DNA of 29,680 nt from IMG/VR virus record IMGVR_UViG_3300022858_000738, positions 1-29,680 of that record. One strand, 5' to 3'. The notes beneath the pieces were generated by a model that was not told the origin of the DNA, searched no databases, and saw only the letters and a program-made list of their open reading frames with translations. This DNA comes from a virus. How positions within the stretch are numbered: the first letter of the stretch is position 1; every line of letters begins with the position of its first letter. Of the stretch, positions 1,937-24,965 are shown piece by piece. The position numbers and the translations under genes were made by a program.

Positions 1937-1965
1937 TTGATAAAGAATAGAATATATGATATAAT
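1937..1965 (+). promoter_or_regulatory. Sigma70-type promoter between two terminators
   Basis: TTGATA (1937-1942) and TATAAT (1960-1965) are separated by exactly 17 bases. The -35 box sits in the T-rich tail of the preceding terminator. Transcription should begin near 1972. The bases after the -10 box (TTAGTAG) resemble those after the two HNH-cassette promoters at 5599 and 9491. Confidence 0.8.
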
Positions 1966-1971
1966 TTAGTA

Positions 1972-2024
1972 GTCGGATCAGTTGAGTCGGGGAGCAGTCG
2001 AAACTCTCCGGCTCTTTTTATTTT
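1972..2024 (+). ncRNA. Candidate small RNA of about 50 nt ending in an intrinsic terminator
   Basis: The promoter at 1937 would make an RNA from about 1972 that ends at the hairpin GAGTCGGGGAG (1984-1994) with CTCTCCGGCTC (2004-2014), eleven pairs with a loop CAGTCGAAA, followed by TTTTTATTTT. Only about 12 unpaired bases precede the hairpin. No ribosome site or reading frame fits inside. The RNA could be a regulatory small RNA, or the promoter could fire past a leaky terminator into the early region. Transcription itself is inferred. Confidence 0.6.
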
Positions 2025-3889: not shown

Positions 3890-5005
3890 TTGAAAATGAA
3901 AATTGAAGAACTAAACCGAGCAAGTGAAGGAGACACTCTCGAACTTGAAGGAACAGTCTTTAGATTGAAAGAACCAAACTCAAATGATTTCGATGGTGAA
4001 ATTATATGGGGTCAGTTCATCGTGCTAAAAGATGACTCAGGCGAACAGGGAGCTTGGTTAAAGTTGGGGGCAAAGGAGGACAGGGTTGCAAAGGGAACTA
4101 AAATAAAAATTAAAGGTAAGTTAGGTAAAGAGTACACAACCAGCCGTGGAGCAAAGGCAAGGTCTATCAATAACTGTGATTTTGAAGTATTAGAAGCAGG
4201 ACAAGCACCTACACAATCTTCAGCAAAATCTACTAAACAATCTTCGGAGAGTCCAACACAAAATGGAAAAGTTGATGATAAGGTTTGGAGAGAAAAAGAC
4301 TTGAGGATGGCAAGAGAATCAGCACTTAAAAATATAACACAATTTGTAGTGGCAAAAATGGTGAAATTAGAAGATCGCTTTAAATATGCTCAAGAAGATG
4401 TTGATTTTATCTACGAGGATATGCGATTAACCAGTGAAGATATCACCAAAGAGTTTGGCGGGACTACTAAAGAAGAACCCAAGGAAGAAAGCAAAGAAGA
4501 AAAGATAGAAAAAGCAAGAGAAGCAGTAGGTAAGACTGAATTTAAACCAGCTTCTACCAAACAAAAGAATATAATCTTTGGCTATCGTGATGAAAAAGGT
4601 TGGCATAAGGGTATTATCGAATCCCGTTATGTTGAAAAAGACGAAATAAAAGAGATAGGAGACCCCAAGAATCTTTCCGTAGAAAAAGCAAGTGAATGGA
4701 TTGAGCTTTGGTGGGGTGAAGAAGGCAATCCCGAAGATATCGGAGCAAGGAAGCAGAGAGAGATTGACAATCCCAGGGATAAAAACGGAAAACTTGTAAA
4801 TGCTTTAGTAAAAGGGGATAAGACTTCTCTTGCTAAAGATATCTTAATCGATGAAATCAATGCTTTAAGACGAGAGAATTTCTTAAATGATGATGTAAAA
4901 TTTGAAGAAGAGTTGGGTTATAATCCTAGACTTGAGAACCTGACTGAAAAAGAACTATCAGCATTGAAGGCTCTATTGAAGAAGTATCATCCGAAAGATT
5001 GGTAA
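3890..5005 (+). CDS. OB-fold single-stranded-nucleic-acid-binding-like protein
   Basis: A 371-residue protein from TTG 3890 after AGGAGG. Residues about 8-105 look like an OB fold: alternating strands in GDTLELEGTVFRLKEP, GQFIVLKDDSGEQGAWLKL and KGTKIKIKGKL. A Ser/Thr/Gln-rich linker (about 107-125) follows, then a long acidic helical part with EE/KEE runs, and a C-terminal domain ending KALLKKYHPKDW. A phage OB-fold protein in a replication operon probably coats or recruits to single-stranded DNA. The C-terminal half is unrecognised; it may bind helicase or initiator. Confidence 0.55.
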   Translation: MKMKIEELNRASEGDTLELEGTVFRLKEPNSNDFDGEIIWGQFIVLKDDSGEQGAWLKLGAKEDRVAKGTKIKIKGKLGKEYTTSRGAKARSINNCDFEVLEAGQAPTQSSAKSTKQSSESPTQNGKVDDKVWREKDLRMARESALKNITQFVVAKMVKLEDRFKYAQEDVDFIYEDMRLTSEDITKEFGGTTKEEPKEESKEEKIEKAREAVGKTEFKPASTKQKNIIFGYRDEKGWHKGIIESRYVEKDEIKEIGDPKNLSVEKASEWIELWWGEEGNPEDIGARKQREIDNPRDKNGKLVNALVKGDKTSLAKDILIDEINALRRENFLNDDVKFEEELGYNPRLENLTEKELSALKALLKKYHPKDW

Positions 5006-5008
5006 TAT

Positions 5009-5114
5009 TTGCCTGCCCTGTTGATGCGCTGCCATCAAGGTAAGAGAGCACAGATTTGTAGCAGAGGCATCACTGTGTTGGGAACAGGGTGGGGAATCCT
5101 GTCAGGGCAGGCAA
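5009..5114 (+). ncRNA. Structured RNA element B (four-way junction)
   Basis: A perfect 12-pair closing stem joins TTGCCTGCCCTG (5009-5020) and CAGGGCAGGCAA (5103-5114). P2 follows without a gap: TTGATG 5021-5026 with CATCAA 5033-5038. After GGTAAGAGA comes P3, GCACAG 5048-5053 with CTGTGT 5073-5078, then P4, ACAGG 5084-5088 with CCTGT 5098-5102, capped by TGGGGAA and abutting the closing stem. The ribosome site of the 47-residue membrane gene begins four bases later, so this may be its leader. Element C at 5499-5594 has the same plan. Confidence 0.7.
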
Positions 5115-5130
5115 TAAAAGGAGATAAATA

Positions 5131-5274
5131 ATGGATAATTATGTTTTGGGAATTATTTCGGGAATTTTGGTTTTTATTTTATGGAAGATTATATCACCGT
5201 TTATAATGTTTATATTAGAAACTTTGGAAGTTGCTTATAAATATAATATTAATAAAAAGGAGGTGATAAAATGA
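5131..5274 (+). CDS. Single-pass small membrane protein
   Basis: A 47-residue protein after AAAGGAGA. Residues about 4-29 are hydrophobic (LGIISGILVFILW, then SPFIMFIL), followed by a polar, basic tail. No signal cleavage site is evident. Its mRNA would begin with structured RNA B, and it overlaps the next gene at ATGA. Candidates include a small membrane toxin, a holin-like or a superinfection-exclusion protein; nothing chooses among them. Confidence 0.55.
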   Translation: MDNYVLGIISGILVFILWKIISPFIMFILETLEVAYKYNINKKEVIK

Positions 5275-5492
5275 CTGATTTCACGGTTAATAAAGAAGAT
5301 AAATATTATGAATATCATGGTGAAGTTTGGAGGATTCTACAAAATGGCGAAAATATTCTATTTGCAAAAAAGGAAACATTAATGGATTCTGGAGAGGGTA
5401 CGTACGTGCTTCTTTATGACCCTAACAACAAAGGCTTTAAAGATAGATATTCTGATATTTCTGATGTAGATAGAATATTTATAAAAAAATAA
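5271..5492 (+). CDS. Hypothetical 73-residue protein
   Basis: Starts by ATGA overlap with the membrane protein after AAAAGGAGG. It looks like a small all-beta fold: YYEYHGEVWRILQNGENILFA in parts, then TYVLLYDPNNKGFKDRYSD. No motif recognised. It forms a two-gene unit with the membrane protein, and this unit is bracketed by the related structured RNAs B and C. Confidence 0.55.
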   Translation: MTDFTVNKEDKYYEYHGEVWRILQNGENILFAKKETLMDSGEGTYVLLYDPNNKGFKDRYSDISDVDRIFIKK

Positions 5493-5498
5493 TATTAT

Positions 5499-5594
5499 AA
5501 CCTATCCTGTAACATGAAAGTGTTAGGTTTGGACTACGGTAATGTTCGGTGTGGAGAAGGTAGTGGAGTTGGGGTAGCTTCACCAGGATAGGTT
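5499..5594 (+). ncRNA. Structured RNA element C (same plan as B)
   Basis: A perfect 11-pair closing stem joins AACCTATCCTG (5499-5509) and CAGGATAGGTT (5584-5594). P2 follows at once: TAACA 5510-5514 with TGTTA 5521-5525. It is followed by GGT, as in B. A weak P3 pairs AC 5533-5534 with GT 5549-5550 and CGG 5537-5539 with TCG 5546-5548, with a two-base bulge. P4 pairs GTGGAG 5551-5556 with CTTCAC 5578-5583, holds TGGGGTA in its apex and abuts the closing stem. Nearly every stem differs from B in sequence while the arrangement is kept. Confidence 0.65.
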
Positions 5595-5598
5595 TTAA

Positions 5599-5627
5599 TT
5601 GATTAAAAAAGGAAGGTGTGATATAAT
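5599..5627 (+). promoter_or_regulatory. Promoter of the first HNH cassette
   Basis: TTGATT (5599-5604), 17 bases, then TATAAT (5622-5627). Transcription should start near 5634. It begins five bases after element C ends. Boxes, spacing and the bases just downstream (CTTTAGTAGGAGC) match the promoter at 9491. Confidence 0.8.
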
Positions 5628-5633
5628 CTTTAG

Positions 5634-5754
5634 TAGGAGCATAAAATCGTGATAAAATTAAAATTAAATCAAAATCAAATAATAGCCAAACAGAGACCAT
5701 CGTTTCACGTTTCCTATCTGTCACGAGATAGGTTGCTCCTGCGGTGGTTTTTTT
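5634..5754 (+). ncRNA. Leader RNA D of the first HNH cassette, with terminator-like end
   Basis: From the promoter at 5599. AGGAGCA (5635-5641) can pair with TGCTCCT (5734-5740). CCATCG (5697-5702) pairs with CGGTGG (5742-5747), and AGCCAAACA (5684-5692) with TGTTTGGCT (5754-5762). Inside is a 7-pair hairpin, CCTATCT 5713-5719 with AGATAGG 5726-5732. The 5' pairing crosses the long stem, so the fold is a potential pseudoknot. A run of seven T (5748-5754) after CGGTGG makes a terminator-like end. It could be a stable RNA of about 120 nt or a leader that limits HNH expression. Confidence 0.6.
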
Positions 5755-5783
5755 GTTTGGCTATTTTATTTGAAAGGAGATAG
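5649..5783 (+). CDS. Possible 44-residue leader peptide in RNA D
   Basis: GTG 5649 lies nine bases after TAGGAG (5634-5639) and opens a 44-codon frame ending at TAG 5781-5783. It is basic with a hydrophobic end (LLLRWFFCLAILFERR). The frame is the same as that of the HNH gene, whose CTG start is only three bases past this stop. Its ribosome site is one strand of the pseudoknot, so translation and folding would compete. It may be a chance frame inside a structured RNA. Confidence 0.3.
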   Translation: MIKLKLNQNQIIAKQRPSFHVSYLSRDRLLLRWFFCLAILFERR

Positions 5784-5786
5784 GTT

Positions 5787-6368
5787 CTGTTTAATAAAAA
5801 AGAATATAAAAGACAATGGAAACTTAATCACCCAAAGGAACTAAAAGCATATGATAAACAATATAACCTTGACCATAAGAAAGAACGAAAACAATGGTAT
5901 ATCGACCACAAAGAAGAAAGAAATGAATATAGTAAACAATGGAATCACGACCATAAAGAAGAAATAGCAACAAATAAGAGGAAATGGAATGAAGAAAATC
6001 CAGAATATTATAAACAATACTATCTTAATAATAGAGAAGCATTGTATGGACAAAATCAACAATATCGTAAAGATAATCCAGAATGTGATAAGCAGTATCG
6101 TTTTAGCCATAAAAAGGAAACAGCGGAATATATGAAACAACACCTTCAAACTCCAGAAGGTAAATTGAGTCATCAGAGGGCTAACTTTAAAAGACGTGAT
6201 TTAGGGTTTATTCCTTTGAATGAATACTTCGAGGGAAGTGAAGGACACCATATCAGTCAGAACTTCGTAATCTACATGCCTAAAGAAATACATAAGAGTT
6301 TATACCACAACCTTCGGACAGGTAAAAATATGGAGAAGATAAATAAATTAGCGATAGAATTTTTGTAA
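5787..6368 (+). CDS. HNH-like free-standing homing endonuclease, apparent CTG start
   Basis: A 193-residue protein. The N-terminal two-thirds is a run of imperfect ~11-15-residue basic repeats of the type KQYRKDNPE, shared with the other HNH genes here. The C-terminus (GHHISQNFVIYMP, then EIHKSLYHN) is a His-rich HNH-like region without CxxC knuckles. The first residues FNKKEY match the ATG-started HNH gene at 9649, placing CTG 5787 exactly where that gene has ATG, seven bases after GGAG (5776-5779). No ATG, GTG or TTG lies in frame until deep in the repeats (about 6036-6044). Likely a selfish intergenic element. Confidence 0.65.
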   Translation: MFNKKEYKRQWKLNHPKELKAYDKQYNLDHKKERKQWYIDHKEERNEYSKQWNHDHKEEIATNKRKWNEENPEYYKQYYLNNREALYGQNQQYRKDNPECDKQYRFSHKKETAEYMKQHLQTPEGKLSHQRANFKRRDLGFIPLNEYFEGSEGHHISQNFVIYMPKEIHKSLYHNLRTGKNMEKINKLAIEFL

Positions 6369-6384
6369 AGAGAGGAGAAAGAAA

Positions 6385-7125
6385 GTGGCAGACGTCAAAT
6401 GGATAAAGCTGGTCACCGAATTTTTTGACGATGAAAAAATTAAACTTATTGAAAATATTCCAGAGGCAGATATGGTTTTAATTATCTGGATTAAGTTATT
6501 AACATTAGCAGGTAAAAAAAATGTCAATGGTTATATATTTCTAACTGAAAATATTCCCTATACAGATGAAATGTTAGCTACAATATTTAATCGACCTCTT
6601 AATACAATAAGGCTGGCATTAGAGACTTTTAAAAAATTCGGAATGATTAGTTTCGATGAAAACGAGATTATGTATATAACTAATTGGGAAAAGCACCAGA
6701 ACATTGAAGGGCTTGAAAAAATAAGAGAGCAGAACAGATTAAGACAAATAAAATTTCAGAAAGAACATAAGAAATTACCTAAACCAAAGAAGGATAACGT
6801 TAGTATAACGTTGGATAACGCAACAGATAAGAAGAGATTAGATAAGAAGAGATTAGATAAGAAGAGATCAGAAGAAGAAGAAGAGAAAGATATTGTTTTT
6901 ACTAACACATTACAAGAATTCAAAGACATGAGAAAGACAAAAAAGAAACCAATGACAGAAAAAGCAATATCAATGTTGTTAAATAAATTAGATAAGATAA
7001 CTACTGATGATAACGAACAGATTAAAATAATGGAACAGAGCATATTTCATTGCTGGGATAGTGTATACCCACTAAAAGAAAATAATAACCAAGAGGCAAA
7101 AGATAATATGCCAATTTTAAAATAA
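6385..7125 (+). CDS. Phage replisome organizer (DnaD-like N-terminal domain)
   Basis: A 246-residue protein from GTG 6385 after GAGGAGA. Residues about 1-120 match the Phage_rep_org_N winged-helix type: VKWIKLVTEFFDDEKIKLIE (first 23 residues), then a helical wing and ITNWEKHQNIEGLEKIREQN at about 96-115. Such proteins bind the phage origin and load DnaB-type helicase, encoded next. A basic linker has tandem RLDKK repeats (about 147-163) encoded by 15-bp DNA repeats. The C-terminal 80 residues are helical, as in DnaD-like proteins. Good confidence by domain and neighbour. Confidence 0.75.
   Translation: MADVKWIKLVTEFFDDEKIKLIENIPEADMVLIIWIKLLTLAGKKNVNGYIFLTENIPYTDEMLATIFNRPLNTIRLALETFKKFGMISFDENEIMYITNWEKHQNIEGLEKIREQNRLRQIKFQKEHKKLPKPKKDNVSITLDNATDKKRLDKKRLDKKRSEEEEEKDIVFTNTLQEFKDMRKTKKKPMTEKAISMLLNKLDKITTDDNEQIKIMEQSIFHCWDSVYPLKENNNQEAKDNMPILK
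6794..6870 (+). repeat. Iteron-like and 15-bp tandem repeats: candidate replication origin
   Basis: Inside the replisome organizer gene, ATAACG recurs three times at 10-11 base spacing (GATAACGTTAG, TATAACGTTGG, ATAACGCAAC; about 6794-6824). It is followed directly by three 15-bp repeats GATAAGAAGAGATTA (6826-6840, 6841-6855, 6856-6870, the last ending TCA). Several phages place their origin inside the initiator gene with repeats at helical spacing. The role here is inferred. Confidence 0.45.
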
Positions 7126-7169
7126 ATAATATAATATTTTGTAAATTTTAAAATAAAGGAGGATCGGAC

Positions 7170-8438
7170 ATGGAATTTTACAATTATTCAGCTGAACAGG
7201 CAAGTTTAGGTTCACAGTTATTAAATGCAGAAGCTGTGGTAAATAGTATAGAGATGTTACAACCAGATGATTACGACAAAACTACACATCAATTAATATT
7301 TAATGAAATTAAAATAATGTTCAAAAATAATATAGGGGTCGATTTGGTTACCTTAACCGAACAATTGAAGAATAAAAACCTATTGGAGAAAATAGGCGGG
7401 GCTACTTACCTATTTCATTTGATTAACAGTGTGCCTACTTCGGCAAACATCGGATATTACAATAAAATTGTAAAGACAAAATCAAATCAGAGAAAAATAT
7501 TAGCTATTTATAATGATATGAAAGAAGGCAAATTAGAAATAGATACTGGGATACAAAAAATAATAGCAATTCCCCAGGTAGAAATAAAAGAAGAAACCTT
7601 AAAAGAAATATTTAGTAACGCTTTAAGTAAATCCGTAAAGGGGACAGAGTATAAATTCGATATACAGATATTGAACCGGTATTTGGGAGGGCTTGATAAG
7701 GCTGAAATATTAACTATTGGAGCTTTCACAAGCCAGGGTAAAACCAGCCTGGCGATTCAATTGGCAATAGATTTTGCAGAAAACGATAAGAAAGTATTAT
7801 ACATAAGTGGTGAAATGACTACCTATGAAGTGGCCAGGCGTATAATAGGAAACAATAATCAGAAAAATATTATGGATCTTCGTAAAGGAATAATAAGCAA
7901 AAAAGAAGAAGAGGAGATAGAAAAGATAATTGGCTTGGCCAGCAAATGGAAACTAAATATTAAGAAGGTTACCAGCCTGGATGATGCAGAGAAATATATT
8001 AGAAAATATAAACCGGAAATAGTATTTCTTGATTACCTTCAAAACCTGGGTGTTGAAAATGATTATAAAGAGATCACCAAAAACATGCTTCGTATCCACG
8101 CTATAGCCCTGCAAGAAGAAATTACAATAATAGTATTGAGCCAATTATCCAGGGGAAGTAAAGATTTAGTGAGGAGACCTCGATTAAATGATCTAAGGGG
8201 GTCTGGCAGGATTGAAGAAATAAGTAATATGGTGATACTAATCTACTGGGAAAATAGGATCAAAGAAAAATTAAAAGAAAGAAAGGGGGGAGAAGAACCT
8301 GAAAAATTAGAATTAACCATAGCAAAAAACCGTGCTGGGACGATCGGCCGCTTTGAATTAGCTTTCTGGCCTGAGTGGTGTCGTGTAAAAGAGATTGAAA
8401 CTAATTTTAAGGAGAGTTATTATGAGCAAAACCGATGA
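7170..8438 (+). CDS. dnaB-like: Replicative DNA helicase, DnaB family
   Basis: A 422-residue protein after GGAGG. It has the two-domain DnaB layout: an N-terminal helical domain (residues about 5-130, starting YSAEQASLGSQLLNAEAV) and a RecA-type ATPase domain. Walker A is GAFTSQGKTS (184-193), Walker B IVFLDYL (284-290), then LSQLSRGS (323-330) and the conserved RPRLNDLRGSG block (336-346). It unwinds the fork 5' to 3' as a hexamer, loaded by the replisome organizer encoded just upstream. The length is slightly short of bacterial DnaB, normal for phage. No intein or damage seen. Confidence 0.93.
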   Translation: MEFYNYSAEQASLGSQLLNAEAVVNSIEMLQPDDYDKTTHQLIFNEIKIMFKNNIGVDLVTLTEQLKNKNLLEKIGGATYLFHLINSVPTSANIGYYNKIVKTKSNQRKILAIYNDMKEGKLEIDTGIQKIIAIPQVEIKEETLKEIFSNALSKSVKGTEYKFDIQILNRYLGGLDKAEILTIGAFTSQGKTSLAIQLAIDFAENDKKVLYISGEMTTYEVARRIIGNNNQKNIMDLRKGIISKKEEEEIEKIIGLASKWKLNIKKVTSLDDAEKYIRKYKPEIVFLDYLQNLGVENDYKEITKNMLRIHAIALQEEITIIVLSQLSRGSKDLVRRPRLNDLRGSGRIEEISNMVILIYWENRIKEKLKERKGGEEPEKLELTIAKNRAGTIGRFELAFWPEWCRVKEIETNFKESYYEQNR

Positions 8439-8535
8439 TTATGAAAAAGCCAAAAGGGAAATACAGAAAAAGAACTTAACGCCGGATGAATACGAAAGAG
8501 CTATTCGGGAGTTGTGTAAAAGATTAAATTATTAA
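8422..8535 (+). CDS. Small 37-residue protein overlapping the helicase end
   Basis: ATG 8422 lies within the last codons of the helicase gene, after AAGGAGAG. The product is charged and helical: TDDYEKAKREIQKKN, then LTPDEYERAIRELCKRLNY. The LTPDEYE pattern suggests a single helical hairpin. Not recognised. The coupling to the helicase hints at a helicase-associated role; this is inference. Confidence 0.45.
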   Translation: MSKTDDYEKAKREIQKKNLTPDEYERAIRELCKRLNY

Positions 8536-8544
8536 AGTAAATAA

Positions 8545-8562
8545 CGTTTCGCAAGCGAAACG
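8545..8562. promoter_or_regulatory. Perfect inverted repeat before a ribosome site
   Basis: CGTTTCGC (8545-8552) and GCGAAACG (8555-8562) are separated by AA. As RNA this is a 7-pair hairpin with a CAAG loop; as DNA it is an 18-base operator-like palindrome. It ends two bases before AGGAGGG of the next gene and could modulate its translation. No U-tract, so not a terminator. Confidence 0.5.
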
Positions 8563-8576
8563 GAAGGAGGGTAAAG

Positions 8577-9173
8577 ATGAGTTATAAAGATACTATGACT
8601 TATGCTGTCGCTATGCACGATTTCGATAAGATGTGCAAAATAAATTTTAAGAAGATGATAAAGAAATTAGAAGCTGACCCATTAATAAAGAAAATAATTA
8701 AAGAATGTAATGAAAAGGAGGAAAAGAAAATGACGATGAAATTTAAAATGAAACATGACAAGTTTAAAAAGTTACCGTACTTAGATGTTAAAGTTGTGAA
8801 GGTGGGGAAGGAGGAACCTAAATATTTTGTAAAAGGAAAAGTTGGAGGTAGATTGGTTGGGATGTTTGCCAAAAAAAATGGGGAAATATGTACCGAGGTA
8901 ATCAAGCCCAAGAAAGGTTGGTGGGTCAATGGCGAGAATTTGGGCAAGATAAAGTTCCCATGCTTTTGTAGTTATCGATATTTTATTAGCGGTAAAAAAG
9001 GCGATAAAAGTAACGGAATGTTAATGAAATTAGGAAACAATTATTATATTGCAAACATAGGTAGCCAAGGCGACTGGACTCCATATTTTGTAAGTTACGA
9101 TTTGAAATTTCTAATAGAGAATTTTAATATCCACATCCTAAAGGGGAAAATCATTCTCTGGGAGGAAGAATAA
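8577..9173 (+). CDS. Hypothetical protein with a possible internal start
   Basis: A 198-residue basic protein after GGAGGG. The first 50 residues are a separate helical piece (YAVAMHDFDKMCKINFKKM). A lysine-rich beta-type domain follows (LDVKVVKVGKEEPKYFVKG, then GWWVNGENLGKIKFPCFC). A very good internal site, AAGGAGG (8715-8721), stands eight bases before in-frame ATG 8730 and would give a 147-residue form without the helical piece. No family recognised. It sits between replication genes, so DNA or RNA binding is plausible. Confidence 0.5.
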   Translation: MSYKDTMTYAVAMHDFDKMCKINFKKMIKKLEADPLIKKIIKECNEKEEKKMTMKFKMKHDKFKKLPYLDVKVVKVGKEEPKYFVKGKVGGRLVGMFAKKNGEICTEVIKPKKGWWVNGENLGKIKFPCFCSYRYFISGKKGDKSNGMLMKLGNNYYIANIGSQGDWTPYFVSYDLKFLIENFNIHILKGKIILWEEE

Positions 9174-9174
9174 G

Positions 9175-9432
9175 ATGTCAATGAATACGAAAGAAGCGAT
9201 TGAGTTTTTAAATGATTTACAAGATGATTATGAGGAATTACAAGAAGAAGGTAACAATAAAGGCATATTAGAAGTTATTAAATTATTAGAAATGTTAGAA
9301 GAAATAGGAAGGGTTTATGATATAAGCCACTTTAAACAAAAATACTTTCCAGAACCAAAAGAGAGACTCGTTGAATTAGTAAAAAAGATGGATAGAGAAG
9401 TAAGAGAACTTTTAAATATGTTAGGAGGGTGA
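9175..9432 (+). CDS. Small coiled-coil protein
   Basis: An 85-residue acidic, leucine-rich helical protein starting two bases after the previous stop, with GGAGG (9162-9166) at the gene border. Heptad-like patterns (LNDLQDDYEELQEE, then VIKLLEMLEEIGRV, then VKKMDREVRELLNML) suggest a coiled coil. Not recognised; possibly an adaptor or oligomer partner of the preceding gene. Confidence 0.5.
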   Translation: MSMNTKEAIEFLNDLQDDYEELQEEGNNKGILEVIKLLEMLEEIGRVYDISHFKQKYFPEPKERLVELVKKMDREVRELLNMLGG

Positions 9433-9437
9433 TTAAA

Positions 9438-9494
9438 ATGAGATGGGGCAAAAGAATATTAAAAGTAGTTAAGAGTAAGAATATTGTTATTTGA
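9438..9494 (+). CDS. Possible 18-residue basic peptide
   Basis: ATG 9438 follows AGGAGGGTG and encodes MRWGKRILKVVKSKNIVI before TGA 9492-9494. The stop lies inside the -35 box of the next cassette promoter, so the HNH cassette may have been inserted here and cut a longer gene short. Coding is uncertain. Confidence 0.3.
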   Translation: MRWGKRILKVVKSKNIVI

Positions 9495-9519
9495 TTTCCA
9501 AAGTAAAATATGTTATAAT
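9491..9519 (+). promoter_or_regulatory. Promoter of the second HNH cassette
   Basis: TTGATT (9491-9496), 17 bases, TATAAT (9514-9519). The start should be near 9526. The boxes and spacing are identical to those of the promoter at 5599. Confidence 0.8.
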
Positions 9520-9526
9520 TCTTAAT

Positions 9527-9640
9527 AGCGGTAAGAAAAGCAATTTTTTATTTTGTATCAAAATTATAGGGTGTAGAGTAGGTTTTTAGGAAGTTTAATT
9601 GCTTTCTTATCGCTGACTGAAATATACCCTATTTTATTTG
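9527..9640 (+). ncRNA. Leader RNA E of the second HNH cassette, hairpin with pseudoknot
   Basis: An 18-pair stem with one bulged A joins 9527-9545 (begins AGCGGTAAG) and 9597-9614 (ends TTATCGCT), starting at about the first transcribed base. The loop holds a small hairpin, TTTTG 9551-9555 with CAAAA 9559-9563. ATAGGGTGTA (9566-9575) in the loop can pair with TATACCCTAT (9623-9632), ten pairs with one G-T, which lies outside the stem: a pseudoknot. That strand ends just upstream of GGAGG (9640-9644), so the fold could control translation of the HNH gene. Confidence 0.65.
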
Positions 9641-9648
9641 GAGGAATT

Positions 9649-10218
9649 ATGTTTAATAAAAAAGAATACTATAAACAATATCGTGAAGATAATCCTGAAA
9701 AGATAAAGGAATACAGGAAACAATGGTATAAAAATAATCCAGAAAAGGTGAAGGAACAAAATAAACAATATCGTGAAGATAATCCAGAATATCATAAACA
9801 ATGGCGTAAGGATAACCCAGAGAAGGTGAAGGAATGTAGAAATAAATGGAAAAAAAACAAGAGGAAAGTAAGCACAAAATATAATCTTACTTGCAAAATG
9901 AGTAGTGCAATAAGGAAGTCTTTGAAAAGTAATAAAGAAGGCAGACATTGGGAAGGTCTTGTTGGTTATACTTTGAAAGACTTAATAAGACGATTAAAAA
10001 AGACTGTACCTTCAGGTTATACTTGGCAGGACTTTTTGGAAGGCAAACTACATGTAGACCATATTATACCAATATCAGTTTTTAACTTTACAAACTCAAA
10101 TCATATAGATTTTAAACGGTGTTGGGCTTTGTCTAATTTACAATTGTTACCAGCTAAAGAAAATATAATTAAACATAATAAATTAATAAAATCATTTCAA
10201 CCAGCATTAGAAATTTAA
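9649..10218 (+). CDS. HNH endonuclease with basic N-terminal repeats
   Basis: A 189-residue protein after TTGGAGG. Residues 1-70 are about four repeats of a 15-residue basic unit (KQYREDNPEKIKEYR, KQWYKNNPEKVKEQN and so on). The C-terminal half is an HNH nuclease of the kind with HVDHIIPISVFNF (about 137-149), a conserved C-W in KRCWALSNLQLLPAKENI, and N/K contacts downstream. It is closely related to the gene at 16567 over this half. A free-standing homing endonuclease that cuts unoccupied sites to spread is the likely role. Two copies of a 24-base stretch (9671-9694, 9761-9784) recur exactly in the HNH gene at 21435. Confidence 0.85.
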   Translation: MFNKKEYYKQYREDNPEKIKEYRKQWYKNNPEKVKEQNKQYREDNPEYHKQWRKDNPEKVKECRNKWKKNKRKVSTKYNLTCKMSSAIRKSLKSNKEGRHWEGLVGYTLKDLIRRLKKTVPSGYTWQDFLEGKLHVDHIIPISVFNFTNSNHIDFKRCWALSNLQLLPAKENIIKHNKLIKSFQPALEI

Positions 10219-10243
10219 ATATTGATAAAAAGGAGGCAAATTT

Positions 10244-10384
10244 ATGAGATTACGTTGGTCTAACGAAGGATTAAAAAAGCCAATTAAGGAAGCGGAACGA
10301 CCCAATGAATCAAATTGGTGGGCTTTATTCATAGTTCTAATTGTGATGGTGATATGTTTTATTCTTAAAGTAATGGAGATGTAA
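10244..10384 (+). CDS. Small membrane protein
   Basis: A 46-residue protein after AAAGGAGG. Polar residues 1-24 (LRWSNEGLKKPIKEAERPNE) precede one membrane helix at about 27-42 (WALFIVLIVMVICFIL). It ends one base before the next ATG. Not recognised. Confidence 0.5.
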   Translation: MRLRWSNEGLKKPIKEAERPNESNWWALFIVLIVMVICFILKVMEM

Positions 10385-15030: not shown

Positions 15031-15113
15031 TTATATTCACCTCCTTTAATTTAATAAAGTATCAAATAAAATAACCTTAATAATGCCCACCTAATAAGAT
15101 GGACACTATAAAG

Positions 15114-16032: not shown

Positions 16033-16566
16033 CTAATTAGCTGATTTTTGAAAGTGTTATAAACAAACACTTAATTACCAATGCTGTACCAGTCCAGTAA
16101 AGAAATAGAGCAATCATAGAGGATTTAGAGGAGATTCAGAGGTATAAAGACAGGCAAAGCCTCCTCGAAGCCTCTTAAATGGTAAAATAGAGCGATTAAG
16201 AGGGTAGTATGAGTGAACCAGAGAGCAATAGAGGAGATAAGAGGCTAAAAGCTATCAAAGGTGGCTAATGAGTGAAAATTGAAAGCGTTGGTACATAAGG
16301 CTTTGTTATGGGTTGAGCATAGGGCTGATACAAGATAGAAAGTTAGAGCTTTGGAAGTTAAGAGCTAAGGCTTGAGGTTGAGCTTGAGGCTTGAGAGGTT
16401 GAGGAAGCTGGAAGCTGAGAGGTTGAGAGAAAAGGAAAAAAGATAATTCATATATCAAGATTGTATATAGAAGGGCGGAGGGGCAGGAGAGGAGAAAAAA
16501 TATATATATAGTACCTACTTCTCTACAAATTTTTTATAATTTCTGAAGGGGTAAAATAGATAAAAT
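16033..16566 (+). other. 534-base purine-rich non-coding tract; candidate packaging/regulatory site
   Basis: No supported gene. It begins with the palindrome AGCTAATTAGCT (about 16031-16042) and a hairpin AAGTGTT 16052-16058 with AACACTT 16066-16072. The plus strand is then strongly A/G-rich with few C. AGAGCRAT occurs at 16107, 16189 and 16222, each followed by GAGG words, and GGTTGAG at 16311, 16376, 16397 and 16421. An A/T tract (about 16500-16512) precedes the HNH gene. Lying beside the small terminase it could be a pac/cos region; invasion debris is another reading. A 19-codon frame at 16209 is probably not a gene. Confidence 0.55.
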
Positions 16567-17073
16567 ATGAATAAAGAGGAATTGAAAAATTATCGTAAAC
16601 TATATTATAGAATATGGCGAAAGAATAATCCTGAAACAGAAAAAGAAATAAAAAGAAGATATCGTAAAAAACATCGTTCTGAAAGGTGTGAATATAACCA
16701 ACAATGGAGAAAGGGAAAATATAAAACAGATTTAAAATTCAATCTTAATTCTAAAATATCAAAATCAGTAAGAAAATCTTTAAAAGGCAATAAAGTTGGT
16801 CGTTGGGAAGACTTGGTTGATTATACTACAAATGATTTAATTAAAAGGTTAAAGCAAACAATTCCCAAAGGGTATACTTGGAAAGATTATTTAGAAGCTA
16901 AATTACATCTCGACCATATTATACCAATTGATGTATTTAATTTTACCAAACCAGAACACATAGATTTCGAAAGGTGTTGGGCTTTAGAGAATTTAAGACT
17001 ATTGCCTGCTAAAGAAAATTTAATTAAGGGCAATAAATTAAGTAGACCATTTCAACCAGCTTTAAGTCTTTAA
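16567..17073 (+). CDS. HNH endonuclease inserted between the terminase genes
   Basis: A 168-residue paralogue of the gene at 9649. The N-terminus has fewer basic repeats (YRIWRKNNPETEKEIKR). The nuclease half matches closely: HLDHIIPIDVFNF (about 117-129), FERCWALENLRLLPAKENL and the end SRPFQPALSL. The ribosome site GAAGGGG is 18 bases upstream, further than usual. Like other free-standing homing endonucleases it sits between conserved phage genes, probably near its own recognition site in the terminase region. Codon use is more A/T-rich than the terminase. Confidence 0.83.
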   Translation: MNKEELKNYRKLYYRIWRKNNPETEKEIKRRYRKKHRSERCEYNQQWRKGKYKTDLKFNLNSKISKSVRKSLKGNKVGRWEDLVDYTTNDLIKRLKQTIPKGYTWKDYLEAKLHLDHIIPIDVFNFTKPEHIDFERCWALENLRLLPAKENLIKGNKLSRPFQPALSL

Positions 17074-17285: not shown

Positions 17286-18671
17286 ATGAATCTCGACATA
17301 AACTTACCACACCATTACAAGGAATATGACTGGCAAATTCCGATAGTTCGTGCGTTCCAAGACAATAAGGAAATATGGATGAACATACACCGTAGAGGAG
17401 GGAAAGACCTTCTCTGTTTTTGCCGTCTTCTCTTACCTTCGGCTTTTAAGAGGCCGGGAACCTATCCTTATGTCTGGCCGACCCTAAAGCAGGGAAGAGA
17501 CGCTATCTGGGAAGGCAAAGATGAGGAAGGAAGAGACCTCATGAAATATTACATCCCGCAGGAAATGATAATCAAAAAAGATAATGCAGATATGAAACTG
17601 ACCGTAAGGTCCGTGGGGGGGACTTCTCAGATACAGATATTCGGCACCAACAAACAACAGTATGAAGCAATGCGGGGAAAACCGGCTAATCTTGCGGTAT
17701 TTGCCGAATACGCCCGGCAAGACCCCAGAGGTGCGGAAGTTGTATCTCCCATGTTAGTGAAGACCAATGGAATAGCCGTATACAACTCGACTCCGAACGG
17801 AAACAACCATTTTAAACAAGGTTATCATATGTCCAAAAACAACCCTGACAGTTGTTATCACATAACGGCGACTGTCGATGATACCTTCAACCATAACGGC
17901 GACAGGCTCGTGACCGAAGAGGCAATCCAGAAGGAAAGGGACAAGGGTAAAACCGAAGATTACATCAATCAGGAATTTTACTGTTCGTTCAACCAAGGTA
18001 TAGAAGGGACTTACTTAGGCAAACAGATGCAGATTGCCGCCAATGATGGAAGGATACTCGGTCTGGCTTATGATGAGACCGTACCTGTGAACACAGCCTG
18101 GGATCTTGGGGTCGGAGATTTCATGTCTATTGTCTTCTACCAGATGATAGGAAATTGGGTTCATGTCATTGATTATCTCGAGGCTACGGGATACTCGTTT
18201 TTATACTATGCACAGAAACTGAAAGAAAGACACGATGAGAAAGGTTACTTCTACGGTACCCATTATGCACCTTTCGATATCAAGGAAAGAGAGATGGGAA
18301 GTGACCACGAAGAAGTCAAGGCCTTGACAAGAAAGGAAAAAGCTGAGAAAATAGGATTGATCTTTGAAGATGTGGAAAAGACCAGTTTTCAGAACAGCGT
18401 AGACAACGCCCGGGCTATTATGCGGAGATGTAAATTTAACTCCGACAGCAAGGGAGTTAGGCTGTTGATAACCCATCTCGAACAGTGGGGGAAGAAGTGG
18501 AACGACATCAATCAGGAATACGGTGATTTTGAGGCTACAACCGTCCATAAACACGCAGGAGCAGCTTTTAGGTACATGTCAACCACTGTAACGGAAATGA
18601 CGCATATGACAGATTATGACGACATTACTGATGATTATGAAAAGAAGTGTACCGAATTTGTAGGTTTATAA
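17286..18671 (+). CDS. terL: Terminase large subunit
   Basis: A 461-residue packaging motor. Walker A is HRRGGKD (35-41), the phage variant with arginines. The Walker B region is LAVFAEYA (136-143) with glutamate at 141 but alanine where aspartate is usual. The coupling motif is NSTPNGN (167-173). The nuclease part has WDLGVGD (272-278) and VIDYLEA (294-300), supplying the acidic metal ligands of the RNase H-like fold. It pumps DNA into the prohead through the portal and cuts the concatemer. More GC-rich than the neighbouring HNH genes. Confidence 0.92.
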   Translation: MNLDINLPHHYKEYDWQIPIVRAFQDNKEIWMNIHRRGGKDLLCFCRLLLPSAFKRPGTYPYVWPTLKQGRDAIWEGKDEEGRDLMKYYIPQEMIIKKDNADMKLTVRSVGGTSQIQIFGTNKQQYEAMRGKPANLAVFAEYARQDPRGAEVVSPMLVKTNGIAVYNSTPNGNNHFKQGYHMSKNNPDSCYHITATVDDTFNHNGDRLVTEEAIQKERDKGKTEDYINQEFYCSFNQGIEGTYLGKQMQIAANDGRILGLAYDETVPVNTAWDLGVGDFMSIVFYQMIGNWVHVIDYLEATGYSFLYYAQKLKERHDEKGYFYGTHYAPFDIKEREMGSDHEEVKALTRKEKAEKIGLIFEDVEKTSFQNSVDNARAIMRRCKFNSDSKGVRLLITHLEQWGKKWNDINQEYGDFEATTVHKHAGAAFRYMSTTVTEMTHMTDYDDITDDYEKKCTEFVGL

Positions 18672-19546: not shown

Positions 19547-21433
19547 ATGCAGGAAGAAGCAGTTATCAAGAAAAAAGGTGAAATACTTTTAGACTGGGCG
19601 TTAACTCGTTATCAAACCGGTAAAACATTCTGGCAGCCTTATCAAGATGAATGGGCGAAGATAAAAATACAGTATAACGGCATCACCGTCGTAGGAAAAG
19701 AAATATGGCAGAGCAACATCGTAGTACCCACCCTGAAGAAGGTTGTCCGTGCTTTGTGTTCCCATTATATTAATATACTTCTTTCCAAAGGTGCTGAATC
19801 ATTCGATATAGCACCGGGAGAGGAATCAGACAAGAAGAACGCTGAATTATTACGTTACAAGATTGTATATGACCTGAACACTTTAGAGATAGAACGGAAG
19901 ATACTCCCTATCCTGAAGAATTTTGTTTTGTATGGTTATGCGGTTGCCTACGTCCCCTGGAAGCACACCGTAGAAAAGCATAGAATAAGTAAAAATACTG
20001 TGAAAAAAGTTATCACATTTGACGGACCCGATATAGTATGTGTCGATCTGGCAAAATTTGTGTCCGACCCGAACTGCCTCGATCTGTCCTCATGGAAAGT
20101 CTACGAAAAAGACGATATTCCCATCCACTATTTAAAAGCCAAAGAAAAAACAAACAGAAACCCAGAAGGTATATACTCTAATATCGAGGCTGTAAAAGAG
20201 ACCGTATATCCCAACACAGATGATACCGAACATAAAGATAAAGTGGAACTACTCGAATATCACGGACTCGTACCTAAAAAACTAATTGAAGGCAGAATAG
20301 ATGACGCTTCCGAGCCGAATCCTTTCGATGATGAATATGTTCAGGGGATTATCGTAATAGCCAATCAAAAAGTAGTAATCAGGGCAAGTGCATATCCTTA
20401 TTGGTGTAACGATATATTCGTACCATTCGTCAATGACCGCATGGTAGACGAAATCGTCGGTTGCGGCGTAGGACGGGACATCAGGGCACTCGCACCCATG
20501 CTGACCAACTTATATAATAAATTGACCGATTGCGTAAATATTATAGCCAATCCGATGTATGAAGCGGTGATAAATCGTTATCTTGGGAAGGCAAAGACCA
20601 TATTAACCAGACCGGGAAGAGTCCTTCCGGTGAGACAACTCGGAGGCATTAGAGAGGTCAACACTACTGCACAGGCTGCCTCGCTTAGGACACTTCAGGA
20701 CTTGATTGTAATGATTGACAAGATTATAGATGAACTCACCGGAACAACTCCGCAAGTCATGCCTGCTTCCGGTGAAGGTGATGTCCATCGAACAATGGGT
20801 GGACTGGCCATGATGAAAGAAGAATCCATGCTGCCGATAAATACAAAGATAAAATTCTACCTTGAACCTCCTTTCCGCAAGATACTTGGAATCATCTACC
20901 GCCACAATATACAAAGATTCAAGAAAGCCAGTATGTTCAGGATATTGGGAGAAAAAGCGAAAAAGTTCGATTTAGAACATCTCACTAAAGCCGATATTAT
21001 GATGAAGGGTAATCCTGATTTCATACCTACCGGTATATCGGGGTTTATGGAGAGAATGTCCGAGATTAGGAATTTATTAGATTATATGAAGTTACTGGCT
21101 GGGGTCGCTATTCCTGCAACCAAGATGGATATGATGGGGAATGAAGTCCCGATATTCGACCCCGAAGGCAAGCCAGCTATGAAACCTTACGGAAACATAG
21201 CTTATATAGCAAGGAGAATCGCCGAACTACTCAGATTAAAAGAAATTGATAAGATAGCACCTGAAGTAGAGGAAATGGAAAAACCTAAGAAAATTCCAAA
21301 ACAGACCCCCCCGCAGAAGGGCTCCCCTTCTGGAGTGGCTAGTGGGATTACCCCGTCCAACCAGCCCCGGGGGGATTATTTAGGCAAAAGTTTAGCAGGA
21401 GCAGGGAGAGCAACGGAGATGAGAGGAGAGTAA
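19547..21433 (+). CDS. Portal protein
   Basis: A 628-residue protein after the large terminase, the position and size of a podovirus-like portal. N-terminal part: WQPYQDEWAKIKIQYNG and ALCSHYINILLSKGAESFDI. A central clip/stem-like region follows (GRDIRALAPMLTNLYNKLTD, about 307-326), then a wing with ELTGTTPQVMPASGEGD (about 393-409). The tail after about residue 565 is Pro/Gly-rich and likely disordered. It forms the dodecameric ring for DNA entry, carrying the packaging motor and then the tail adaptor. Assigned by order, length and partial motifs. Confidence 0.78.
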   Translation: MQEEAVIKKKGEILLDWALTRYQTGKTFWQPYQDEWAKIKIQYNGITVVGKEIWQSNIVVPTLKKVVRALCSHYINILLSKGAESFDIAPGEESDKKNAELLRYKIVYDLNTLEIERKILPILKNFVLYGYAVAYVPWKHTVEKHRISKNTVKKVITFDGPDIVCVDLAKFVSDPNCLDLSSWKVYEKDDIPIHYLKAKEKTNRNPEGIYSNIEAVKETVYPNTDDTEHKDKVELLEYHGLVPKKLIEGRIDDASEPNPFDDEYVQGIIVIANQKVVIRASAYPYWCNDIFVPFVNDRMVDEIVGCGVGRDIRALAPMLTNLYNKLTDCVNIIANPMYEAVINRYLGKAKTILTRPGRVLPVRQLGGIREVNTTAQAASLRTLQDLIVMIDKIIDELTGTTPQVMPASGEGDVHRTMGGLAMMKEESMLPINTKIKFYLEPPFRKILGIIYRHNIQRFKKASMFRILGEKAKKFDLEHLTKADIMMKGNPDFIPTGISGFMERMSEIRNLLDYMKLLAGVAIPATKMDMMGNEVPIFDPEGKPAMKPYGNIAYIARRIAELLRLKEIDKIAPEVEEMEKPKKIPKQTPPQKGSPSGVASGITPSNQPRGDYLGKSLAGAGRATEMRGE

Positions 21434-21434
21434 A

Positions 21435-22193
21435 ATAATCAATAATAAAAAAGAATATAATAAAAAATATTATCAAAATAATAGAGAAAAAGTATTAGAA
21501 CGCTTAAAACGAAATCGCAAAAATCATCCTGAATATATGAAAGAATATTATCAAAAGAATAAAGAAAAAATATCAAAAAAACATAAACAATATCGTGAAG
21601 ATAATCTTGAGAAAGAACTAAAACAAAGGAAGATATATTATCAATGTAATAAAGAAAAAATAAGTGGGGATAAAAAACAATATTATAAAAATAACCGTGA
21701 AGTGATATTAAAATATAATAAGCAATGGTATAAAAATAATCCTGAGAAAAAAGAAGAATATTATAAGAACAATAAAGAAAGAATAGATGAACAACATAAA
21801 AAATGGTATATGAACAATCTTGAAGAAAGAAAAAAACGTAAGAAACAATATCGTAAATCAGACGAAGGCAAAGCAGCTAATCAAAGAGGTCATATGAGAA
21901 GACATTTAAAAGAGACTAATATGATTAATACTTTAACCGCCCAAGAATGGGAAAATATATTAAGTATATTTAATAATCATTGTGCTTATTGTGGTTGCGA
22001 ATTTACAGATAAAAATAAACCAGCAAGAGACCACATAATACCAATAAGCAAAGGCGGACACAATGTGAAAGAAAATATAGTACCTGCCTGCCAGAGTTGT
22101 AATTCAAGAAAATATAATAAAATATTAATAGGAGGGACTTATGATTTCAGAAGAAAAATCAGAAGAGGAACAAGAGCTTGCTTTATCAGCTGA
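21435..22193 (+). CDS. HNH endonuclease, apparent ATA (or ATC) start
   Basis: A 252-residue protein if read from ATA 21435, one base after the portal stop and four bases after GGAGAG. A TGA at 21420 closes the frame upstream, and no ATG, GTG or TTG follows until 21537, which lacks a ribosome site and would drop the conserved start NNKKEYNKKYY. About eight basic repeats (KQYREDN, KQWYKNNPEKK) precede an HNH domain: CAYCGCEF (about 180-187), DHIIPISKGGHNVKENI, and CQSCNSRK. A homing endonuclease inserted after portal. Its end overlaps the next gene by 53 bases. Confidence 0.8.
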   Translation: MINNKKEYNKKYYQNNREKVLERLKRNRKNHPEYMKEYYQKNKEKISKKHKQYREDNLEKELKQRKIYYQCNKEKISGDKKQYYKNNREVILKYNKQWYKNNPEKKEEYYKNNKERIDEQHKKWYMNNLEERKKRKKQYRKSDEGKAANQRGHMRRHLKETNMINTLTAQEWENILSIFNNHCAYCGCEFTDKNKPARDHIIPISKGGHNVKENIVPACQSCNSRKYNKILIGGTYDFRRKIRRGTRACFIS

Positions 22194-23714: not shown

Positions 23715-24965
23715 ATGGCATGGGATACAGGAGCCGCAGCCGCAAATTTAGCTAGAGCAGGCGGAGTTTCAACAGGAGCAGCCGCCAAAGATATTAAGAC
23801 ATTGTATAAGGCAGTCTACTTAAAAAATAGGCAGCCGAAGTTAGTTTTTCAACAGTTCGCAGCAAAGCAGGATAATGACACAACCATCCCCTTAAACAAA
23901 GGTGACAACATAGAGTATACCAGATATGCACCACTAAACGATTATAACCCCGATTCAAGGGCTTATGCACTATTAGCTGAAGGAACTACCCCCGACCCTG
24001 AAGTGTACTATGCACAGACCGTCACAGCGGTACTGGACGAGTATGGTAGTTTCATTCAACCTTCATCTCGAACCTGGCTGACAGCATACGACCCGAAACT
24101 GGGAGGGTTGATAAGTTTACTGGGAACACAGAGTGGTAAGACCTTAGACCTGAAGATACAGAATATACTTGCACAGGGATTTATGGGAATAAGAGCAGAT
24201 TCAGACACCAATTATCAAGGAGAAATCGTAGCCGCATCAAGTGCAGGTACAACTACTGTACCTATCTTTGATTCGTTACCAACTACTATTGCATCAGATA
24301 CGACATCAAGTTCGGGTGTTGTAGTATTTTTAGACGGCAAGAATCAAGGAATAGTCAGGACTTATGTAGGAGCAACTTCTACTACTATCACTATAGCAGC
24401 ATTACCACACGCTATGACCGATAATGAAAGAGCCTGGATATGCGACACTACAGGACTAACCACAGGTGATAAGATTACTCCTGCACTAATAAAGAAAGCA
24501 GTAGCTAAACTCGAGGACCAGGAAACACCTATGTTTGAGGACGGATACTATCATGCAGCAATTCCAAGAGGTGGAATGAAGTATGACTTTATGAACGACA
24601 CCGAATATATCAACTTAAAACATTATGCAGCACCTAAAGACCTTTACAGGAATTTAGTCGGTGAGTTTGCTGGTGTTCGTTTCCATGAGACTACAGTTCC
24701 TTACAGGCATACCGCAGGGACTATCGGGACTTATGTAGGAACTGCTTTACCGAGAATGGTTTCCATCTTCGGAAAATATGCTTTCGGGAATGTAAAGTTG
24801 GCAGGTAAAGATCAGAAGTTTTATGTTAATCCTCCTCCTGAGGAAGGTACTACTACCAATCCGTTAAGTATGTTTGGTACGGTTGGATGGAAAAATATGT
24901 ACGCCCCAATCGTCCTCAACGGATCGTGGGGAATTAACATTTTTTGTGTGCCTTCTGTGGTATAA
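23715..24965 (+). CDS. Major capsid protein, N4-gp56 family
   Basis: A 416-residue HK97-fold shell protein. The start MAWDTGAAAANLARAGG, then YLKNRQPKLVFQQFAAKQDN and IPLNKGDNIEYTRYAPL (about 59-75), followed by EGTTPDPEVYYAQTVTAVLDEYG in parts, is the characteristic N4-gp56 pattern (long N-arm, then E-loop). A middle insertion rich in Thr/Ser/Gly (about 171-235) may form a surface domain. The C-terminal segment (FGTVGWKNMYAPIVLN) matches the conserved family ending. Expressed with the scaffold; GC content higher than the HNH genes. Confidence 0.82.
   Translation: MAWDTGAAAANLARAGGVSTGAAAKDIKTLYKAVYLKNRQPKLVFQQFAAKQDNDTTIPLNKGDNIEYTRYAPLNDYNPDSRAYALLAEGTTPDPEVYYAQTVTAVLDEYGSFIQPSSRTWLTAYDPKLGGLISLLGTQSGKTLDLKIQNILAQGFMGIRADSDTNYQGEIVAASSAGTTTVPIFDSLPTTIASDTTSSSGVVVFLDGKNQGIVRTYVGATSTTITIAALPHAMTDNERAWICDTTGLTTGDKITPALIKKAVAKLEDQETPMFEDGYYHAAIPRGGMKYDFMNDTEYINLKHYAAPKDLYRNLVGEFAGVRFHETTVPYRHTAGTIGTYVGTALPRMVSIFGKYAFGNVKLAGKDQKFYVNPPPEEGTTTNPLSMFGTVGWKNMYAPIVLNGSWGINIFCVPSVV

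Follow-up and report, generated by a model that had tools for sequence, protein, structure and literature searches.

The phage sequence examined here, IMG/VR record IMGVR_UViG_3300022858_000738, is linear and 29,680 bases long, and was analysed over its whole length (the window). Lysis genes come first, followed by early and replication genes (Phage_rep_org_N, DnaB) and then by terminase, portal and capsid genes. Four HNH-type genes start at 5787, 9649, 16567 and about 21437. The first two are each preceded by a promoter and a structured leader RNA, a leader not found at 16567 and 21437. The features of the two units, with P1, P2 and P3 denoting helices of the leaders, are listed below.

5599-5627, plus strand: promoter 1, TTGATT-17-TATAAT, with TG one base before the -10 element
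5633-5641, plus strand: 5' strand of P1 of leader 1, GTAGGAGCA, pairing with 5734-5742
5682-5696, plus strand: 5' strand of P2 of leader 1, ATAGCCAAACAGAGA, pairing with 5750-5764
5713-5732, plus strand: hairpin P3 of leader 1, CCTATCTGTCACGAGATAGG, from the fold, with the same elements seen by eye at 24830 of phage G012 (below)
5734-5742, plus strand: 3' strand of P1 of leader 1, TGCTCCTGC
5750-5772, plus strand: 3' strand of P2 of leader 1 (5750-5764) and U-rich tract, containing the 12-mer CTATTTTATTTG at 5761-5772
5773-5779, plus strand: Shine-Dalgarno sequence AAAGGAG, adjoining the U-tract, read from the sequence
5787-6368, plus strand: HNH-like endonuclease gene 1, 193 amino acids, with N-terminal K-rich repeats and C-terminal EGSEGHHI...YMPKEIHKSLYHN
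9491-9519, plus strand: promoter 2, TTGATT-17-TATAAT, with TG before the -10 element
9526-9545, plus strand: 5' strand of P1 of leader 2, TAGCGGTAAGAAA(A)GCAATT, pairing with 9597-9615, with covariation
9566-9575, plus strand: 5' strand of P2 of leader 2, ATAGGGTGTA, pairing with 9623-9632
9576-9596, plus strand: loop of leader 2, GAGTAGGTTTTTAGGAAGTTT; its conserved form elsewhere among phages is GTAGGTTTAGGAAT or AAGTAAGTGTAAGAAT
9597-9615, plus strand: 3' strand of P1 of leader 2, AATTGCTTTCTTATCGCTG, by pairing and covariation
9616-9640, plus strand: conserved linker ACTGAAA, 3' strand of P2 of leader 2 (9623-9632) and U-rich tract, with the shared 12-mer at 9629-9640
9640-9644, plus strand: Shine-Dalgarno sequence GGAGG, abutting the U-tract, read from the sequence
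9649-10218, plus strand: HNH endonuclease gene 2, 189 amino acids, HVDHIIP...N...N; PHROG 1035 endonuclease VII, E 4.9e-10

An earlier note on this DNA had assigned to both HNH genes a TTGATT-17-TATAAT promoter and a TARTAG start region. Both promoters are exact, and the window has no other exact match, against an expectation of 0.10; overall the region shows no excess of promoter-like sites (30 found, 28.7 expected). Behind each -10 element lies TTARTAG (5630-5636 and 9522-9528). The combination of promoter and TTARTAG occurs three times in the window and was absent from shuffled sequences. The third occurrence had been overlooked:

1937-2024, plus strand: third promoter copy (1937-1972) and short RNA with a stem at 1984-2014 and a U-tract at 2015-2024

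The RNA of this third promoter carries an ordinary intrinsic terminator and no pseudoknot, and there is no HNH gene behind it, which counts in part against the coupling of promoter and HNH gene. The transcription start of promoter 1 would fall near 5634-5635, at the beginning of P1. A further terminator, GGCTACTCAG..CTGGGTAGTC-TTTTTTATTTG, lies at 1900-1939, and its end coincides exactly with the -35 element of promoter 3.

The pseudoknot that the earlier note considered possible is supported in both leaders, as interleaved P1 and P2 helices. P1 of leader 1 has 9 pairs and P2 at least 15, enclosing a hairpin; a possible extra helix near P3 joins CGTGA at 5648-5652 to TCACG at 5705-5709. P1 of leader 2 has 19 pairs with one bulge and P2 has 10. 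The leaders had been described as unlike in sequence, which is true overall, but the architecture and the U-tract are common to both. The identical 12-mer before the ribosome site is present at both positions and nowhere else in the window. It consists of the 3' end of P2 with its U-tract, the Shine-Dalgarno sequence coming next, and it resembles terminator tails: CTTTTTTATTTG closes ordinary terminators in several phages, with a window example at 1928-1939. The two genes are also identical over the first 17 bases after the start codon. This identity is accounted for by the N-terminus of the protein family, since relatives lacking the leader begin with MFNRKEY, MINKKEY and similar sequences.

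HNH homologues were fetched from viral contigs and genomes, a structural descriptor (P1 5', P2 5', P1 3' and P2 3' strands, then a U-rich tract) with thresholds fixed on the first few copies was run on them, and whole contigs were then read. The scan of 1.04 Mb gave 14 matches at -27 kcal/mol or better, compared to 0-3 in five shuffles, and 8 matches at -30, compared to 0-1. An earlier run (1.0 Mb) had as its top matches L185, L051, a second place in the L051 phage and both window leaders. Copies occur in phages which have little other DNA in common with the window:

G003 (IMGVR_UViG_3300047201_000122), at 20903, 25366 and 32449: an HNH gene behind each
G012 (IMGVR_UViG_3300044799_000335), at 15073 and 18957: HNH genes behind
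G012, at 17333: a membrane-like gene of 93 amino acids behind
G012, at 24830: a PD-(D/E)XK nuclease gene (PF18741) behind
G001 (IMGVR_UViG_3300002220_000408), three copies: before a Dam methylase gene, a replication gene and an HNH gene
G002 (L185): a copy before an HNH gene
G065: a further copy before a small HNH gene
G049: a further copy; the gene behind resembles one with an MT-A70-like motif

For the 13 main copies, which include both window leaders, the observed helices were never reached in 1000 dinucleotide shuffles. Type I leaders have two members only, the window leader from 5628 and G012 24830, whose four helices are alike by eye. For type II, six sequences (the window from 9520, G003 b and c, and G012 a, b and c) were aligned using MAFFT without structure. 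Standard pairs were formed in 87.8% of cells, and 15 double-sided pairs were counted, compared to 6.4 (standard deviation 1.8) in shuffles, none of 500 reaching the observed value; when the partners were slid by 1-3 columns, at most 5 remained. The P2 columns were 100% paired across the six sequences, with double changes in 7 of the 10 pairs. A hand alignment, which leans towards structure, gave 103/105 paired cells for P1 and 64/64 for P2. The loops AGTARGTTTAAGAA and CYGAAA are conserved in type II. A 17-nucleotide spacer precedes TATAAT in all nine promoters of types I and II, and P2 in the other type II copies has the form AAAAG...CTTTT(TT). The placement of P2, U-tract and Shine-Dalgarno sequence is constant, the last lying outside P1 and P2 in 12 of the 13 copies. 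With P1 and P2 held, it is open in window leader 2 and only in a weak hairpin in leader 1.

These copies bear out the matching promoter-RNA-endonuclease units of the earlier note and extend them to other phages. They also support the suggested exchange of the RNA part. The type I RNA of the window leads into an HNH-like gene and its closest relative, in G012, into the unrelated PD-(D/E)XK nuclease gene; relatives of leader 2 stand before several HNH genes. The leader was present at 8 of 56 profile-detected HNH genes (36 contigs) and at about 9 of roughly 1,000-1,400 other genes (an estimated total), an HNH excess with Fisher values of 1e-6 to 5e-8; because the contigs were chosen for holding HNH genes, the rates apply to these phages alone. 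A restriction of the RNA to HNH genes is not supported. Similar leaders precede Dam methylase, MT-A70-like and replication genes in addition to the PD-(D/E)XK nuclease, and the module is not HNH-specific.

A direct comparison was possible at one site of the related phages G003 and G012. Promoter and RNA are present in both and are 85% alike up to the U-tract; behind the common RNA, an HNH gene comes before the small membrane gene of G003, and the small membrane gene of G012 follows directly. Pairing of P1 at this site is kept by matched changes (GCGG/CCGC and GTGG/CCAC). Thus, the RNA is separable from the nuclease. The earlier note had held that a promoter and RNA standing without the HNH gene in a relative would speak against its cassette, and in part this is what G012 displays, although its relative has the HNH gene at the very same place. 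At a second G003 site the entire cassette is present and is missing in G012, and the G003 HNH genes at 20.9-21.8 kb and 32.6-33.2 kb are absent at the corresponding G012 sites.

Rfam searches of window 4900-10300 at E up to 1 gave no match, and the other copies searched had none at gathering score. No description was found in the full-text literature, a search that did not cover subscription papers, where one could exist. In near and distant searches, isolate phages had no match to window DNA or leaders apart from one trivial 30-base match, to a type III copy. Close relatives of the window, sought by way of DnaB, were not found, nor was a relative for the window's own cassette sites. The leader is apparently an undescribed RNA control element.

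Several candidates were tried and set aside. Pattern scans of viral contigs (12-mer with HNH start; spacer motif with 12-mer) returned nothing or chance matches apart from the known L051. The promoter-leader before the small terminase gene in L099 turned up by way of a chance pattern match and was taken as an analogue only; L098, L100 and most minus-strand descriptor rows were attributed to chance. A topology like that of the hepatitis delta virus ribozyme, in which helix order is alike, was dropped, as the P1-P2 junction is far too long.

Attenuation is suggested by the strong promoter, by a pseudoknot that would begin at +1, and by the terminator-like stem and U-run placed ahead of the ribosome site. 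Each cassette would be an autonomous transcription unit composed of a host sigma-70-type consensus promoter, an RNA of about 110-140 nucleotides, a U-rich tract, a Shine-Dalgarno sequence and the endonuclease gene. The RNA would begin at or near P1 and fold as a pseudoknot with P1 and P2 interleaved; P1 would close first and bring the P2 strands together. P2 with the U-tract, the last element before the Shine-Dalgarno sequence, has the form of an intrinsic terminator, and most transcripts would stop there, before the ribosome site. Occasional or regulated read-through would then supply a low dose of endonuclease. A stable stem does lie directly before a U-rich tract upstream of the gene, and P2 with its U-tract scores as a hairpin plus U-run in both window leaders. 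The type II P2, AAAAG...CTTTT(TT), counts for this reading, being the A-tract/U-tract form of an intrinsic terminator. Since this leader type also serves different single-gene units in further phages, the leader may be a portable attenuator with which free-standing nuclease genes travel, or behind which they settle, its RNA part being exchanged between units. We give about even chances to a constitutive promoter and a pseudoknotted, terminator-like attenuator together keeping endonuclease expression low, which is the likeliest of the readings considered.

A number of observations weigh against attenuation. One or two A or G interrupt the U-tracts (UAUUUUAUUUG), and without P1 the loop of P2 is long; termination may therefore be weak. 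In type II the linker of 7-9 nucleotides is too short to span a P1 of 17-19 base pairs in a classic stacked pseudoknot, and P2 would therefore lie beside P1, or the helices would alternate. The replication and methylase genes behind similar leaders need not stay low. The column-wise pair count on the two type I leaders showed no excess; P1 is displaced in their MAFFT alignment. The copy in G002 is uncertain and its RNA may be coding, since the HNH frame there stays open across the RNA, starting at an ATG at 1884.

A rival reading is a leader that stabilises the message and controls its translation. There would be no termination: the pseudoknot at the 5' end would block decay, the U-rich stretch and Shine-Dalgarno sequence would serve as an open landing site for ribosomes, and a phage or host protein could act as a switch. 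P1 starts at the expected +1 in the window, G003 and G012 copies, the Shine-Dalgarno sequence is almost always outside the helices, and the two type II loops show the conservation expected of a protein site. In the leader of T4 gene 32, too, a pseudoknot is followed by A+U-rich sequence and then by the ribosome site (PMC3014915), and leaders on replication and methylase genes would be natural. A stabilising leader, however, needs no constant strong stem and U-run, which is the terminator form, and the A-tract/U-tract symmetry of type II is kept. We consider this explanation unlikely, while giving it some weight.

That the RNA is kept at the common site in G012 without the HNH gene, P1 still paired, would fit a trans-acting antidote whose pseudoknot binds the endonuclease and restrains it, as in type III toxin-antitoxin or AbiF/RCd22-like operons, whose layout is the same (PMC5086642, PMC12373285). 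Against this, neither window leader has tandem repeats, PADLOC and Pfam detect no ToxN/AbiF-like protein, and genes for unrelated proteins (HNH, PD-(D/E)XK) lie behind one and the same RNA type, with the general architecture before Dam methylase as well. A trans antidote is accordingly doubtful. The specific version, in which excess pseudoknot RNA from the strong promoter restrains a DNA endonuclease and a nuclease-less keeper of the RNA (G012, 17.3 kb) is protected, would seem a little more doubtful still; if true, it would amount to toxin-antitoxin-like RNA control of a homing endonuclease.

The same G012 RNA at 17333, and promoter 3 of the window with its predicted terminated RNA, could instead represent independent phage small-RNA genes having their own promoter and terminator and no functional relation to the genes that follow, with nuclease genes inserting behind the terminators as at safe sites. 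The HNH genes of L027 and L036 lie directly behind strong hairpins with U-runs. But HNH genes in general are not significantly enriched behind terminators (4/68 compared to 5/209, p 0.23), nor behind promoters, and in nearly all copies the Shine-Dalgarno sequence abuts the U-tract with almost no spacer, which argues for a linked function. This proposal we hold to be improbable, much like the antidote. Chance, or plain common descent of two neighbouring gene copies with no RNA function, could appeal to the homologous N-terminus and upstream stretch of the window genes, but it is contradicted by shuffles, covariation and recurrence in phages sharing little other DNA and is scarcely credible.

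No ATG, GTG or TTG stands at the start of gene 1. The frame opens with GTT-CTG right after a TAG stop and AAAGGAG, and CTG is therefore the likely start. Its protein has no Pfam, PHROG or PADLOC match; the relatives are L009 and L010, and judged by sequence the three define a family with the C-terminus EGSE(G/A)HHI...(Y)IPKELHKSIWHN(x)TG. The AlphaFold model has a strand-strand-helix at 151-178, at low confidence. Homologues of gene 2 are found in 88 phage records. The HNH gene at 21423-22193 has a conserved N-terminus (NNKKEY) without ATG, GTG or TTG, and its start is likely to be ATA or ATC behind GAGGAG, in the manner of CTG at 5787. The use of weak start codons may be an additional means of limiting expression of these HNH genes.

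Other features were noted in the window and its companions. The stretches 5010-5116 and 5501-5596, of about 100 nucleotides each, have no listed open reading frame and are strongly folded, with perfect closing stems of 11-12 base pairs (TTGCCTGCCCTG/CAGGGCAGGCAA; AACCTATCCTG/CAGGATAGGTT); one lies directly before a ribosome site and the other directly before promoter 1, and neither has an Rfam match. A suspected likeness between 5572 and 10589 does not exceed shuffles. About 530 bases at 16033-16560, G/A-rich and repeat-like, have no convincing plus-strand open reading frame and precede the HNH gene at 16567. In other phages, HNH genes in L009 (2870-2910), L022 (20-72) and L034 (1780-1839) directly follow a consensus sigma-70 promoter, with a short leader only. 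A hairpin family AGAGAGCC...GGCTCTCTTTTTTTATT stands before genes in G006, G020 and G005 (L227-L231, L238-L239; for example G020 11350 and G006 minus strand 34717), among them an HNH gene (L027), a portal-like gene and one carrying an MT-A70-like motif, and is possibly a further leader type. L221 19077-19205 (G003, 29.1 kb) matches transfer-messenger RNA (RF00023, 53.6 bits) over 129 bases of a 374-position model.

Free-standing homing endonucleases are abundant in phages. For their control, the leader offers a concrete and testable module with its own promoter, one that recurs across several phages and to which no Rfam family corresponds. That such an RNA changes places between unrelated nuclease genes, and persists at a site that has no nuclease, bears on the evolution of selfish genes and their regulators.

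The parallel to T4 drawn in the earlier note is a loose one. What is alike is a promoter and an RNA structure beside a phage endonuclease gene, thought to limit expression. In T4-type leaders (I-TevI, segB, mobE) the structures sequester the ribosome site, within longer transcripts having late or middle promoters; seg43(25) of Aeromonas phage 25 is unusual in having a very stable hairpin just upstream of the ribosome site, not covering it (PMC2988022). Here a consensus sigma-70 promoter starts the RNA itself, the ribosome site is free, and the pseudoknot ends in a U-tract. Presence and absence of the nuclease at the same site in relatives, as looked for in free-standing homing endonucleases, is seen between G003 and G012. 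The T4 gene 32 leader is also a phage messenger RNA pseudoknot, but in the present leaders the helices are much larger, P2 abuts the U-tract and many genes carry the element.

A structured RNA directly upstream of an HNH-protein gene recalls HEARO and the omega-RNA of IscB. The present proteins, however, are of about 190-250 amino acids with K-rich repeats and a terminal HNH domain, and the RNA also occurs before non-HNH genes. The Rfam HEARO model did not match, the proteins of 189-250 amino acids had no IscB-like or RuvC Pfam match, and covariance models recognised no group I intron core. In AbiF/RCd22 a SigA promoter drives a noncoding RNA of about 100-132 nucleotides with a terminator before the toxin gene, where most transcription stops (PMC12373285). 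The order of promoter, structured noncoding RNA of about 100-130 nucleotides (pseudoknotted in type III), terminator, ribosome site and protein gene is the same here (PMC12373285, PMC5086642), the terminator being a predicted one. In contrast to those systems, the leaders have no tandem repeats, the proteins are DNA endonucleases or other phage enzymes and not ToxN/AbiF, and Rfam, which holds the abiF motif, gave no match to the leaders. Autonomous single-gene units in a phage genome are shared with morons. Morons are single genes with their own promoter and terminator; in the units described here, the terminator-like element instead stands before the gene, within the leader.

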